In this document: piece after piece, positions 2,483 to 44,135 of the stretch
Position numbering within the stretch: position 1 is the first letter of the stretch
Layout of the letters: each line of letters opens with the position of its first letter
Assembly (NCBI GenBank): GCA_007134775.1
Contig: SLKC01000009.1
Coordinates: 1-64,000, forward strand
DNA length: 64,000 nucleotides
Reading direction: 5' to 3'
Source of the DNA: Ectothiorhodospiraceae bacterium
GTDB lineage: Bacteria > Pseudomonadota > Gammaproteobacteria > XJ16 > Halofilaceae
Position numbers and translations under genes: made by a program
The notes under the pieces: model-generated
The model's database searches: none
Told to the model about the DNA's origin: nothing
What the model saw: only the letters and a program-made list of their open reading frames with translations

Positions 2483-4708
2483 ATGATGGATCGATGCTTG
2501 CGTAAAGGGGTTTTGCTGGCGCTTATGCTGTGGCTCGCACCCGCCATGGCACTGGCGGATGAGCCCGTGCGACTCGCCGTGAGCGGGCCCATGAGCGGTG
2601 AGGATGCGACCAGCGGGCGAGCCATGGCCGATGCGGCCCGGTTGCTAGCCGAACAGGTCAACGCCGCGGGTGGGATCAATGGCCGGCCCGTGGAAGTGGT
2701 CACCTTCGACAACCAGCGTAGCGAGGAGCGCGCGCGGGCCAACGCCCGTGAGATCGGTGACGGCGATTTCGCCGCCGTGCTCGGGCACTACTACAGCTTC
2801 ATCGCACTCGCGGCGGCACCGATCTACAGTGAGCACGGCATCCCCGCGATTACCGGCAGCGCGACCGCGCCTGCGCTGACCGCTGACCACGACACCTACT
2901 TCCGCGTCATCGCCGACAACGACATCAAGGGGCGGCTGGCGGCGCAGTACATTGCCAGTTTTCTTGAGCGCGAGCGCGTGCACATCGCCTACGAGGATGA
3001 CGCCTACGGTCGCACGCTGATGGCATCGCTCGCCGAAGCCGCACCTGAGGTCGGTGTCGAGGTCAGGCGGCAGTGGGCGGTGGCGTCGGGTAGCGACGGA
3101 CTCGATGAGCAGCTCGACGATATCGTGCTCGATCTACTTACCGCGGACGATGACGCCGTGTTGTTCCTCGGGACCCTGGCCGGTGAATCGGCGGGGCTGG
3201 TTGCGCGGCTGCGCGATACCGGCGTCGACCTGCCGATCCTGGGAGGCGATTCGGTCGGACTCGGCGCCTTTCCGCAGGCACTGGAGGAGCGCGTCGGTGG
3301 TGATCGCTTGCGCGACTACATCGACGGCATCCATGCCACCACCTATTTCATCCCCGACGTCGGCAACCGCGCCGCACGCCGTTTCGTCACCGCTTTCGAA
3401 GAGCGCTTCGAGCGCCGCCCGGACGCGCTGGCGGCAACCTACTACGAGGCCGCGGCCATCGCGCTCGCCGCCTACGAAGCGGGAGAGGGCGCGTCCGCGG
3501 CTACCACCACGGAACAGCGTCAGGCCATTCTCGAGGGACTGCAGGGCTTCGATGGACCCGCTTCGCACTATCCGGGCATCACGGGGCGGATCCACTTCGA
3601 TGCGCTCGGCAATGCCGTGATGTCGGCGCCCTTTGGCGTCTATCGCAATACCGAGCTGATTTCGGCGCCGGGCCAGCTCACGCCGGTGCCCAATCCCGAA
3701 ACCATGATCGACCTCGATGCCCAGCTCGCTGCGGGCAACGTGGTCGAACTCGGCGACCAGCACCTCTACGCCACCGATGTCGTCTATACCGGATTCGACC
3801 TCAATGCGATTGATGCCATCGACCAGGAGGGGGGGACGTTCGATGCGGATTTCTACCTCTGGCTGCGCCACAGCCGGCCGCTCGATCACGACCGCATCGA
3901 GTTCACCAATGCCGTCAGCGAGATCGACCTTGAGGCGGGCAGGCTGATTACGCAGGAGACCGAGGAGGGCTATTACACGGCTTATCGGGTCACGGGCACA
4001 TTCAGCCATCAGTTCGATTTCCGGGCCTACCCGGTCGATAGCCAGGCCTTGCCGATCCGCCTGCGCCATCCGGCGAATACGCTCGAGCGCCTGGTCTTTG
4101 TCGCCGACGATCACGGCATGCGGGGGGCGCATGCGAGCGATGACGGGGGCGGAGCGGCACGCCGGACCGAGGTCCAGGATAGCGAGTGGGAGCTCGACCG
4201 GCTGGTCGTCTTCTCCGATGTGCGCGAGACCGCTTCGACGCTGGGCAACCCGCTGCTGATCGCTGCGGAGAATGCGGAGACGCTGAGCTTTTCGCAGTTC
4301 AACGTGCAGGCGGATATCGACCGCGACCCGACCAGCTACATGCTGAAGAACATGGTGCCCCTCGCCCTGTTCGTCCTGCTTGGCTACTGCATGATGTTCA
4401 TCCATCCGACCGGGCCCGCCTTCGTCGGCCGGCTCAGTCTCGGCGTGACGGCGCTGCTGACCACGGTCTTCCAGAGTCAGCGCGCGGCCGACGAGTTGCC
4501 CGATATCGGCTATCTGGTCGCGATGGACTACATGTACTACGCGGTCTACGCCTACTTCCTGGTGGGGATTGCACTGACAGTGGCGGAGCACTACGCCCTC
4601 GTGCACTACTCGGAAGAGAGCTACCAGAAGATGGACCGATTCGGCCGCCAGTTCATGCCGGTGCTGATGGTTGGCATCTTGGCGCTGGGGCTGGTGCTCT
4701 TCCGCTGA
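2483..4708 (+). CDS. Periplasmic-binding-protein domain fused to a pentameric ligand-gated ion channel
   Basis: A 741-residue predicted receptor-channel. Residues 1-25 are a signal peptide ending AMALA. Residues about 28-395 form a type I periplasmic-binding domain of the LivJ/Peripla_BP_6 kind: the NAAGGINGRPVEV stretch, then GHYYSF near 101-106, and a YFR motif near 139. Residues about 425-615 look like the extracellular beta-sandwich of the Cys-loop/Pro-loop family: FDADFYLWLR near 453, then the Pro-loop with core YPVDSQ near 516 and no flanking cysteines. Four helices follow: M1 619-640, M2 648-668 (RLSLGVTALLTTVF), M3 676-700, M4 722-741. The M2-M3 link (ELPDIGY) and the Asp starting M3 match ELIC-type channels. 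By alignment with ELIC, M2 has Ser 2', Thr 6', Leu 9' and Phe 13', and no Glu at -2'. An AAGGGGGG ribosome-binding site sits at 2475-2482; ATG 2486 is an equal start. Inference: an inner-membrane channel gated by a solute bound in the tethered domain. Confidence 0.88.
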   Translation: MMDRCLRKGVLLALMLWLAPAMALADEPVRLAVSGPMSGEDATSGRAMADAARLLAEQVNAAGGINGRPVEVVTFDNQRSEERARANAREIGDGDFAAVLGHYYSFIALAAAPIYSEHGIPAITGSATAPALTADHDTYFRVIADNDIKGRLAAQYIASFLERERVHIAYEDDAYGRTLMASLAEAAPEVGVEVRRQWAVASGSDGLDEQLDDIVLDLLTADDDAVLFLGTLAGESAGLVARLRDTGVDLPILGGDSVGLGAFPQALEERVGGDRLRDYIDGIHATTYFIPDVGNRAARRFVTAFEERFERRPDALAATYYEAAAIALAAYEAGEGASAATTTEQRQAILEGLQGFDGPASHYPGITGRIHFDALGNAVMSAPFGVYRNTELISAPGQLTPVPNPETMIDLDAQLAAGNVVELGDQHLYATDVVYTGFDLNAIDAIDQEGGTFDADFYLWLRHSRPLDHDRIEFTNAVSEIDLEAGRLITQETEEGYYTAYRVTGTFSHQFDFRAYPVDSQALPIRLRHPANTLERLVFVADDHGMRGAHASDDGGGAARRTEVQDSEWELDRLVVFSDVRETASTLGNPLLIAAENAETLSFSQFNVQADIDRDPTSYMLKNMVPLALFVLLGYCMMFIHPTGPAFVGRLSLGVTALLTTVFQSQRAADELPDIGYLVAMDYMYYAVYAYFLVGIALTVAEHYALVHYSEESYQKMDRFGRQFMPVLMVGILALGLVLFR

Positions 4709-34891: not shown

Positions 34892-36667
34892 ATGGATCGC
34901 GACTCCGAGAATGTAGTCGTCGAGGCGCTCGCCCCGGTGGGCGAGGTCATGCGGCGCGCGCTTGGCGTCATCGGCTTCGGCGCCACCACTGGCGCCCTAG
35001 CGGCCCTCGCCTCACTGGCCTTCATCGATGCCTACCAGTGGTTGAATGCGCTCCTGCTCGTGGCCCCACACGCACGGGCCGAGGTGGCCGACTGGATACT
35101 GCTGGCCGGCGCGACCGTAGCGGTGCCGACGCTCGGCGGTCTCGTCGTCGGCCTGTTCAACCGCTTCCTGTTGCGTGGCGGCCGTGCCCAGGGGCCGCCC
35201 CACGTGATCCGTGAAGCCCAGTCCGGGACCGGTCAGGTCGGCTTGCGCGGTGGACTCGCGAGTGCGACGGCGGCCGTGCTTTCGCTGGGCAGTGGCGCTT
35301 CCGTCGGACAGTACGGTCCGCTGGTCCATCTCGGCAGTACGCTCGGTTCCGCAATCGGGCGCTGGAGCCGGGCGGGTACGGGGCTGGGCACGATCGGAAT
35401 CGGCTGCGGTGTTGCCGCCGCCATCTCGACGGCCTTCAGTGCACCGATCGCCGGGATCCTGTTCGCCCACGAGGTTGTTCTTCGCCATTACTCGCTGAAG
35501 GCGTTTGCACCCATCACGGTCGCCTCCTCGCTCGGCTACTTTCTGACCGAGAACGTCTTCCTGCGCGAGCCGCTATTCCGCATTACCGGCATCCCCGAAC
35601 TCGGTGGACCGGACTTCACACTATTTGTGCTGCTCGGTATCGCGGGAGCGGGGGTAGCAGTCCTGTACATGAACGCCGTGCTCTACATGGGCCGACTCGC
35701 GGGGCGCACCGCGATTCCCGACTGCGTCAAACCGGCCGTTGCGGGCATGGCACTGGGGCTGCTGGCGCTGGGTACGCCCGAGGTGCTGGGCATGGGATTT
35801 GAGACCCTGCGTACCGCGCTCGATCCGGAGGGCTTCGGAGCCGGTGAACTCGGGGTGATCCTGCTGGCCAAGATCGCGGCGACCGCGCTCTGCCTCGGGT
35901 TCGGCTTCGCTGGAGGCGTGACCGGGCCGGCGCTGGTCATCGGCACCCTGTTCGGTGCCTTGCTGGGACAGGGCTTGACCCTGCTCTCCGGGGGAGAGCC
36001 CGGCGTCGTGACGGTCTATGCCATCGTGGGGATGGCCGCGGTGACGGGGCCGGTAATGGGGGCGCCGCTGTCGACGATCCTCATCGTGTTCGAACTCACC
36101 CGCAACTATGAACTAACCACGGCGGTGATGGTCGCTGTGGTCTTCTCCAACCTCGTGGCCTATCGCCTGTTCGGCCGTTCCATGTTCGATGTCCAGCTCC
36201 ACCGGGCCGGTTTCGACCTGCGTTTCGGCCGCGACAAGGTGGTGCTCGACCGCACGCCGATTGCGCCGTGGGTTTCGGACGACTATCTGCGGGTCACGCC
36301 CGACCTGTCGTGCGCCCGAGCCCGCGAGATCGTCATCGCCGCCGGCGCCGAAGAGGCACAGGTTGTGGCGGCCGACGACAGCTACCTGGGTGTGGTCGAT
36401 CTCGCGAGCCTGGATGTCGCCATGGATCGGGGCGAAGGCCGTGGGCCGCTCGCGGGCCACGTGCGGCGCCCGGCGGTTGTCCTCGATACCCGGACCAGTA
36501 TATGGCGGGCCTTCGACAGCGTGCGCGGCTTCAATGGCCACGCCGTGCCCGTCATCGCACCTGGGAGCAGCGAGCGCCTGGCCGGTGTCGTGCATGAACC
36601 GGCCCTCATCCAGGCTTATCTTGATACCATCGCCCGGATTCGCGACGAGGAGAACGCCACGCCGTAG
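34892..36667 (+). CDS. ClC-family anion channel/transporter with CBS domains
   Basis: A 591-residue membrane protein. The ClC core has [16 protein letters not shown] (133-148), where E. coli ClC has [26 protein letters not shown]; and [14 protein letters not shown] with the second anion-binding motif. A cytoplasmic region from about 450 shows a CBS-pair layout. The extracellular gating Glu (E148 in E. coli) is Tyr 141, and the internal proton Glu (E203) aligns with Val 195, while E202 is kept as Glu 194. Loss of both proton-path glutamates suggests passive anion conduction or altered coupling, an inference from homologues. ATG 34892 has only a weak GGGGCG-like site. It could be co-transcribed with the aldolase through the hairpin. 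Confidence 0.85.
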
Positions 36668-43304: not shown

Positions 43305-44135
43305 ATGGACCCGACAGCCCGAGATGAGGAAAGACCCTCCTTCCGCAAGGGGGTAAGGGACTGGATCGAGAGCTCGCGTATCCAGAATCTCATCATCGCG
43401 GTGATCGTGTTCAACGCCATCACACTCGGGCTCGAGACGTCGGTGATGGTCCGCGCCCATGTCGGCGATTGGCTCTGGTGGATCGAGCGGATCGTGCTGA
43501 CGATCTTTGTCGTCGAGATCCTGATCAAGCTGTATGCCCACCGGCTGTACTTCTTCCGTAGCGGCTGGAACGTCTTCGACTTCGTGATCGTCGGCGTATC
43601 GCTTGTGCCGGACGCGGGCCCGCTGGCGATCCTGCGTGCACTGCGCATCCTCAGGCTGCTACGGCTGGTAACGAAGATGCAGCGGTTGCGCCGTATCGTC
43701 GAGTCGCTGCTGCGCGCGATCCCCAGTATCGGGTGGATCGCCGTGTTGCTGTTGATGGTGTTCTACATCTTCGCCGTGATGGGGACCAAGCTCTTCGGCG
43801 AGGCGTTCCCCGGTGATTTCGGCCACCTGGGTCTATCGATGTATTCGCTGTTCCAGGTCATGACGCTGGAGAGCTGGTCGGAGGAGATCGCGCGCCCCAT
43901 CATGGAGCGCTACCCCCTTGCCTGGCTCTATTTCGTCACCTTTATTCTGGTTACCGCCTTCACGGTGCTGAACCTCTTCATCGGTATCATCGTCAGCGCC
44001 ATGCAGGAGCAGCACTACGAAGAGGAGGAGGCACGGCGCGAGGCCAGCGAGGCGAAGGCGCACGCCGAGCGCGAGGAGTTGCTGGACCTCATGCGCCGCA
44101 TCGACGATCGCCTCGCCCGTCTAGAGCGCCGCTAG
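43305..44135 (+). CDS. Bacterial voltage-gated sodium channel (BacNav)
   Basis: A 276-residue single-domain voltage-gated channel that would act as a homotetramer. S1 is 27-45, S2 58-78, S3 88-102. S4 carries arginines every third residue, Arg 111, 114, 117 and 120. S5 spans about 143-160. The selectivity filter is TLESWS at 187-192 followed by Glu 193; Glu 189 is the key sodium-selecting residue in NaChBac and NavAb. S6 is 208-232. A C-terminal acidic/basic helix (EEEEARREASEAKAHAERE, then LLDLMRRIDDRLARLERR) is the coiled-coil bundle of this family. The TLESWSE filter matches the group containing NavAe1 of Alkalilimnicola. In bacteria these channels are tied to sodium-driven motility and pH homeostasis. 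The promoter and ATG are close, and the gene is monocistronic. Confidence 0.92.
   Translation: MDPTARDEERPSFRKGVRDWIESSRIQNLIIAVIVFNAITLGLETSVMVRAHVGDWLWWIERIVLTIFVVEILIKLYAHRLYFFRSGWNVFDFVIVGVSLVPDAGPLAILRALRILRLLRLVTKMQRLRRIVESLLRAIPSIGWIAVLLLMVFYIFAVMGTKLFGEAFPGDFGHLGLSMYSLFQVMTLESWSEEIARPIMERYPLAWLYFVTFILVTAFTVLNLFIGIIVSAMQEQHYEEEEARREASEAKAHAEREELLDLMRRIDDRLARLERR

Follow-up and report, generated by a model that had tools for sequence, protein, structure and literature searches.

The window, by which we mean the whole stretch of 64,000 nucleotides that was analysed, encodes a 741-residue protein that is a real and intact fusion of a type I periplasmic-binding protein (PBP-I) with a pentameric ligand-gated ion channel (pLGIC), of a kind that is known but uncharacterised. 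Its predicted fold, the order of its domains, a partly conserved ligand cradle and the conserved gating motifs are supported directly. We propose that the protein is probably a homopentameric Pro-loop channel, gated by the binding of a ligand to its periplasmic LivJ-type domain; an alpha-amino acid or one of its close analogues is the likeliest ligand.

Architecture of the receptor-channel

The frame runs through 741 codons without a stop (Table 1), and the preliminary description, which had placed a signal peptide, a LivJ-like PBP-I, a pLGIC beta-sandwich and four helices on this one chain, proved correct on every structural point according to Pfam, the PDB and AlphaFold2. Among the domains it expected to be recognised on the chain by profile search, Peripla_BP_6 was recovered over residues 28-360 (E 6e-46) and Neur_chan_memb over residues 650-720, the latter with E 2.6e-4 and a score of 21.8 bits, which falls short of the curated cut-off of 28.1, a value exceeded in the relatives L061 and L077; Neur_chan_LBD had no match in the single-sequence Pfam search of the protein. 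A search with Pfam PF02931 against its own genome gave no match either, but since no control was matched it carries no weight. The NCBIfam model LIC covers residues 597-711 (E 3e-8). A PDB search with the single sequence returned LivJ-type proteins together with ELIC (residues 471-738, E 2.7e-9), and a profile of the channel half, built from five sequences over residues 396-741, matched ELIC, GLIC and GABA-A chains across the beta-sandwich and the membrane domain with E values down to 4e-22. GLIC was also matched by a profile of the extracellular domain alone (E 7e-4). The AlphaFold2 monomer, predicted with 27 homologues (mean pLDDT 86, pTM 0.81), shows the PBP, the beta-sandwich and helices at residues 616-639, 645-671, 677-708 and 711-740. 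The PBP half of the model matches LivJ 4gnr in Foldseek (E 1.6e-24, TM 0.91 by target); the best 50 matches of the full model are type I PBP folds only and bear on that half alone. The Pro-loop proline and aspartate are P517 and D519, the pre-M1 arginine is R614, and the Cys-loop cysteines are absent, as had been described for the YPVDSQ core.

Table 1. Features of the 741-residue protein in the window, and relatives carrying related domain combinations
Feature	Position	Strand	Basis or remark
Whole gene, PBP-I/pLGIC receptor-channel, 741 aa	2483..4708	+	Open frame; same architecture in 30+ homologues
Signal peptide, residues 1-25	2483..2557	+	By eye: basic start, hydrophobic core, AMALA-D; model helix 2-21
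LivJ-like type I periplasmic-binding domain, residues 27-392	2561..3658	+	Pfam Peripla_BP_6; Foldseek to LivJ 4gnr
Ser105, equivalent of LivJ Ser79	2795..2797	+	Alignment to E. coli LivJ/LivK
Thr128, equivalent of LivJ Thr102	2864..2866	+	Alignment to E. coli LivJ/LivK
Asp256, equivalent of LivJ Glu226	3248..3250	+	Alignment to E. coli LivJ/LivK
pLGIC beta-sandwich (ligand-binding/extracellular domain), residues 420-614	3740..4324	+	Model strands; profile matches to GLIC/ELIC
Pro-loop core YPVDSQ, residues 516-521	4028..4045	+	Pro invariant, Asp 32/33 in PBP-headed pLGICs
LGNP, residues 587-590, part of STLGNP motif near beta9-beta10 turn	4241..4252	+	Gly588 kept in 14/14 MscS-type heads
Four-helix membrane domain M1-M4, residues 616-740	4328..4702	+	Neur_chan_memb; model helices
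M2 pore helix, residues 645-671	4415..4495	+	R0', S2', T6', L9', F13', Q16', D20'; no acid at -2'/-1'
MscS-type loci with PBP-I and pLGIC-type beta-sandwich head	L015:327-3830, L016:2750-6547, L031-L037, L042, L043, L047, L049, L107:4798-8169		
pLGICs with N-terminal type I PBP and SBP_bac_1-type (type II) PBP after M4	L060:4609-8373, L061:4780-8343, L064:4786-8328, L072:1-2961		

The weak Pfam score of the channel half taken alone, and the fact that this half was not found in two congeneric genomes, could suggest an artefact of assembly or frame, or a pseudogene. We regard this as extremely improbable, and reject a chimera: pLGIC domains are present, the frame is uninterrupted, and the two halves are joined in more than 30 collinear homologues, those in several Desulfobacterota being about 42% identical to the 741-residue protein. 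The absence from the two congeners may fit a horizontal gain or a loss alike; the genes flanking the locus sit on different contigs in G001 and G002, and no syntenic empty site is readable there.

The gene stands alone between genes of the opposite strand, and a partner transporter would therefore not be needed nearby. A cognate operon partner was considered and rejected, the neighbours being an outer-membrane barrel, an MFS transporter, a YdbH-like protein and GPAT. The window also carries, on the forward strand, a CLC-type chloride channel or antiporter (34892-36667; Pfam Voltage_CLC, E 2e-68) and a 276-residue single-domain Ion_trans protein (43305-44135; E 5e-48) that resembles bacterial voltage-gated sodium channels. 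The whole genome yielded a single methyl-accepting chemotaxis signalling domain (L135, G000:C94:1254-1805).

Ligand pocket, pore and proposed mechanism

The residues by which LivJ anchors its ligand are in contact with it, and their conservation was read from an alignment to LivJ and LivK of E. coli MG1655. LivJ Ser79, Thr102, Tyr150 and Glu226 correspond to S105, T128, Y175 and D256, the last being a conservative equivalent, and among 22 relatives the serine is kept in 21, the threonine and the tyrosine in 17 each and the aspartate in 19. Since the anchoring positions are mostly kept, a solute of the amino-acid or amide type is plausible. The side-chain contact Tyr202 of LivJ is not kept, and its position varies in the relatives, as expected if specificity varies. 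In a larger set of 33 pLGIC-type heads the serine is kept in 29, the threonine in 26 and Asp or Glu in 27; in the 14 heads on MscS-type channels described below the counts are 10, 7 and 5. The anchors are thus not universal, and some heads may therefore bind something other than amino acids. Our best guess from these alignments is an amino-acid-like ligand for the 741-residue protein, with diverse specificity across the family.

On the pore side, the Pro-loop proline is invariant in PBP-headed pLGICs and the Pro-loop aspartate and the pre-M1 arginine are each found in 32/33; given the proline and the arginine, the usual coupling of pLGICs looks intact. The M2 segment reads AFVG-R-LSLGVTALLTTVFQ, and the residues preceding R0' are AFVG, which bears out the earlier observation that M2 is without an acid at its inner mouth. 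In pLGICs, cation selectivity is associated with acidic residues just inside M2. Such an acid stands at -2' or -1' in 8 of 34 PBP-headed pLGICs as opposed to 26 of 30 headless relatives, a difference whose Fisher p of 3e-7 is inflated by shared ancestry and in which L103 (Magnetococcales), scored as headless, is probably a truncated PBP-headed gene. Cation selectivity is therefore not to be assumed, and the doubt already voiced on this point for the single protein holds for most PBP-headed pLGICs. Their M2 sequences suggest that many of these channels may conduct anions or have weak selectivity.

The missing pore acid, together with the bulky F13' and Q16' and the presence of one chemoreceptor in the genome, could also be read as the mark of a signalling receptor with little or no current, whose membrane domain would relay a conformational change to partners, for instance that chemoreceptor. 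This is improbable, however: M2 retains the R0', T6', L9' pattern of working channels, and the protein is without a cytoplasmic domain for protein-protein signalling.

For the ligand-gated channel that we favour, we infer a pentamer and the following sequence of events. The N-terminal LivJ-type clam-shell, lying in the periplasm, would take up a small solute, for which an alpha-amino acid or a close analogue is the likeliest candidate. Its closure would be passed to the beta-sandwich beneath, from there to the salt bridge between the Pro-loop and the pre-M1 arginine, and on to M2, whose movement would open or close the pore; the membrane potential or the ion content of the cell could in this way shift with nutrients. 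To our knowledge, few natural ligands or roles of bacterial pLGICs are known. A LivJ-type binder lends itself to ligand screening in soluble form, and the physiological agonist of such a channel would thereby become directly testable.

Relatives with the same head

The distribution of the architecture was evaluated by running the channel half against 84,980 species genomes, a census that gives the reach of one peptide pattern and not a total. According to frame reading and BLAST, a PBP-I head is present in 36 of the 68 named loci that were matched, and the architecture set out in the preliminary description is thereby found to recur. These 36 comprise 29 plain PBP-I/pLGIC genes, four with a C-terminal SBP_bac_1 domain, one of MscS type and two cut by contig ends. 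They span about seven phyla, including Desulfobacterota, SAR324, Cyanobacteriota, Chloroflexota, Verrucomicrobiota and Actinomycetota, with Thiotrichaceae, Magnetococcales, Mariprofundaceae and Acetobacteraceae among the Pseudomonadota. The Desulfobacterota proteins mentioned above, collinear over the full length, are the nearest relatives, and matches of lower identity occur in many other genomes; on the tree of heads the protein groups with Desulfohalobiaceae and Desulfobacterales (SH-aLRT 97, and 100 for the larger set). Several relatives have features of their own. The PBP-pLGICs of a verrucomicrobial and a Pseudonocardiaceae genome (L073:3808-6387 and L077:4435-6972) carry 110-125 extra residues before the PBP, without a Pfam match there. 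In a gammaproteobacterial relative, the PBP-pLGIC gene adjoins one (L030:6706-7722) for a 338-residue protein that by eye resembles a secreted solute-binding protein. One Parabeggiatoa contig (NBMI01000126.1) holds two PBP-headed pLGIC genes (L063 and L064), one of them with a C-terminal type II PBP, and their products could be subunits of a hetero-oligomer.

The four twin-PBP proteins are found in Pseudanabaenaceae (L060), Parabeggiatoa (L061, L064) and Anaerolineales (L072), their SBP_bac_1 domain being assigned by Pfam in L060 and L061 and by sequence reading in L064 and L072. In L061 this domain scores E 3e-37, and Neur_chan_memb, at 1.4e-7, lies above the cut-off. The C-terminus of pLGICs is extracytoplasmic, and a second binder after M4 would for this reason sit in the periplasm. 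The four proteins are not united on the tree of heads, and several gains or losses are therefore possible. In its set of domains, the twin-PBP form naturally parallels the glutamate receptors of animals.

Searches of 369 class and 399 phylum genomes further revealed frames of about 950-1270 residues that match the 741-residue protein only to about residue 510-640 and belong to MscS-type channels. Pfam finds both Peripla_BP_6 and MS_channel_2nd in L107, L015, L034 and L047, with cNMP_binding in addition in L107 and L015; a cyclic-nucleotide-binding domain is present in some of these headed proteins and absent from others. Their beta-sandwich taken alone matched no pLGIC in the PDB, and its kinship is drawn from full-length BLAST and from hhalign to pLGIC-type heads (probability 100, E 2.9e-44). 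The equivalents of W460, R462, G588 and S604 are kept in 14/14 of these heads, and the Y-P-x-D motif is largely lost. An AlphaFold2 model of L107 (mean pLDDT 62 overall, confident in the head only) has the strand order of the pLGIC-type head. On the tree, 13 of the 14 form one clade (SH-aLRT 100) beside the pLGIC-type heads, with L047 unplaced, and the simplest reading of the tree would be one transfer of the head onto MscS-type channels. Both forms occur in G034, and long and short forms lie side by side in several phylum genomes, as read from the match table and from part of the frames.

The retention of the PBP and the beta-sandwich together on MscS, with a decayed Pro-loop, is consistent with a head acting as a single sensory unit. 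It also bears on the proposal that the PBP concentrates or presents the ligand to the inter-subunit site of the pLGIC, or modulates it slowly, the true agonist acting on the beta-sandwich. This reading, put forward by Tasneem et al. 2004 (PMC549065) and resembling the case of DeCLIC, whose N-terminal domain speeds both activation and deactivation, is possible but rather unlikely; the MscS-type proteins keep an intact PBP fold without the membrane domain of a pLGIC, and direct signalling by the head fits better. Beyond direct gating by the head, we see about an even chance that the PBP-I and the beta-sandwich form a portable two-domain sensor, which serves pLGIC pores, was moved once onto MscS with loss of the Pro-loop, and gained in some proteins a type II PBP after M4. 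If so, a single movement driven by the ligand can open pores of two unrelated architectures, and both PBP types stand on one chain, as in NMDA receptors, but with a Cys-loop-type pore. The common head would allow one sensor to be compared as it drives two unrelated gates. No description of either the MscS-headed or the twin-PBP form was found in the open-access literature that was covered, which is weak evidence of their novelty.

Comparison with known systems

The PBP-I/pLGIC architecture itself, the novelty of which had been implied by the preliminary description, is already known and is uncharacterised in the literature examined; the present protein adds a member. Fusions of an N-terminal PBP-I to a pLGIC core were described in Magnetospirillum and Bradyrhizobium by a study that also noted Cache/MCP-N fusions and operons containing PBP-II genes, and suggested that the proteins serve in chemotaxis as receptors whose extra domains concentrate or sense the ligand (Tasneem et al. 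2004, PMC549065). Such domain associations are evidenced at the genome level only (Jaiteh et al. 2016, PMC4795631). Those fusions likewise unite a signal peptide, a type I PBP and the pLGIC ligand-binding and 4-TM domains on one chain, but belong to another lineage, and the likeness is drawn from their description only. ELIC and GLIC share with the 741-residue protein the beta-sandwich, the Pro-loop, the pre-M1 arginine and the four helices, but are without an N-terminal PBP, and the headless relatives usually keep the acid just inside M2 that is missing here. According to the papers on DeCLIC, no pLGIC other than DeCLIC itself has an N-terminal domain that has been characterised. DeCLIC is, like the present protein, a bacterial pLGIC whose N-terminal domain is large and periplasmic; in DeCLIC this domain tunes gating and consists of a pair of jelly-roll, calcium-binding lobes, whereas the protein described here has a PBP. 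In the NMDA, AMPA and metabotropic glutamate receptors of animals, a type I PBP fold also serves as the extracellular ligand domain of a signalling membrane protein, although neither the pore nor the output domains of these receptors are related to pLGICs. E. coli LivJ and LivK share with the protein the PBP-I fold and, for the most part, the residues that anchor the amino acid, but are free periplasmic proteins that feed an ABC transporter, and MscS-type or bacterial cyclic-nucleotide-gated (bCNG) channels provide the pore module of the relatives that carry its head.
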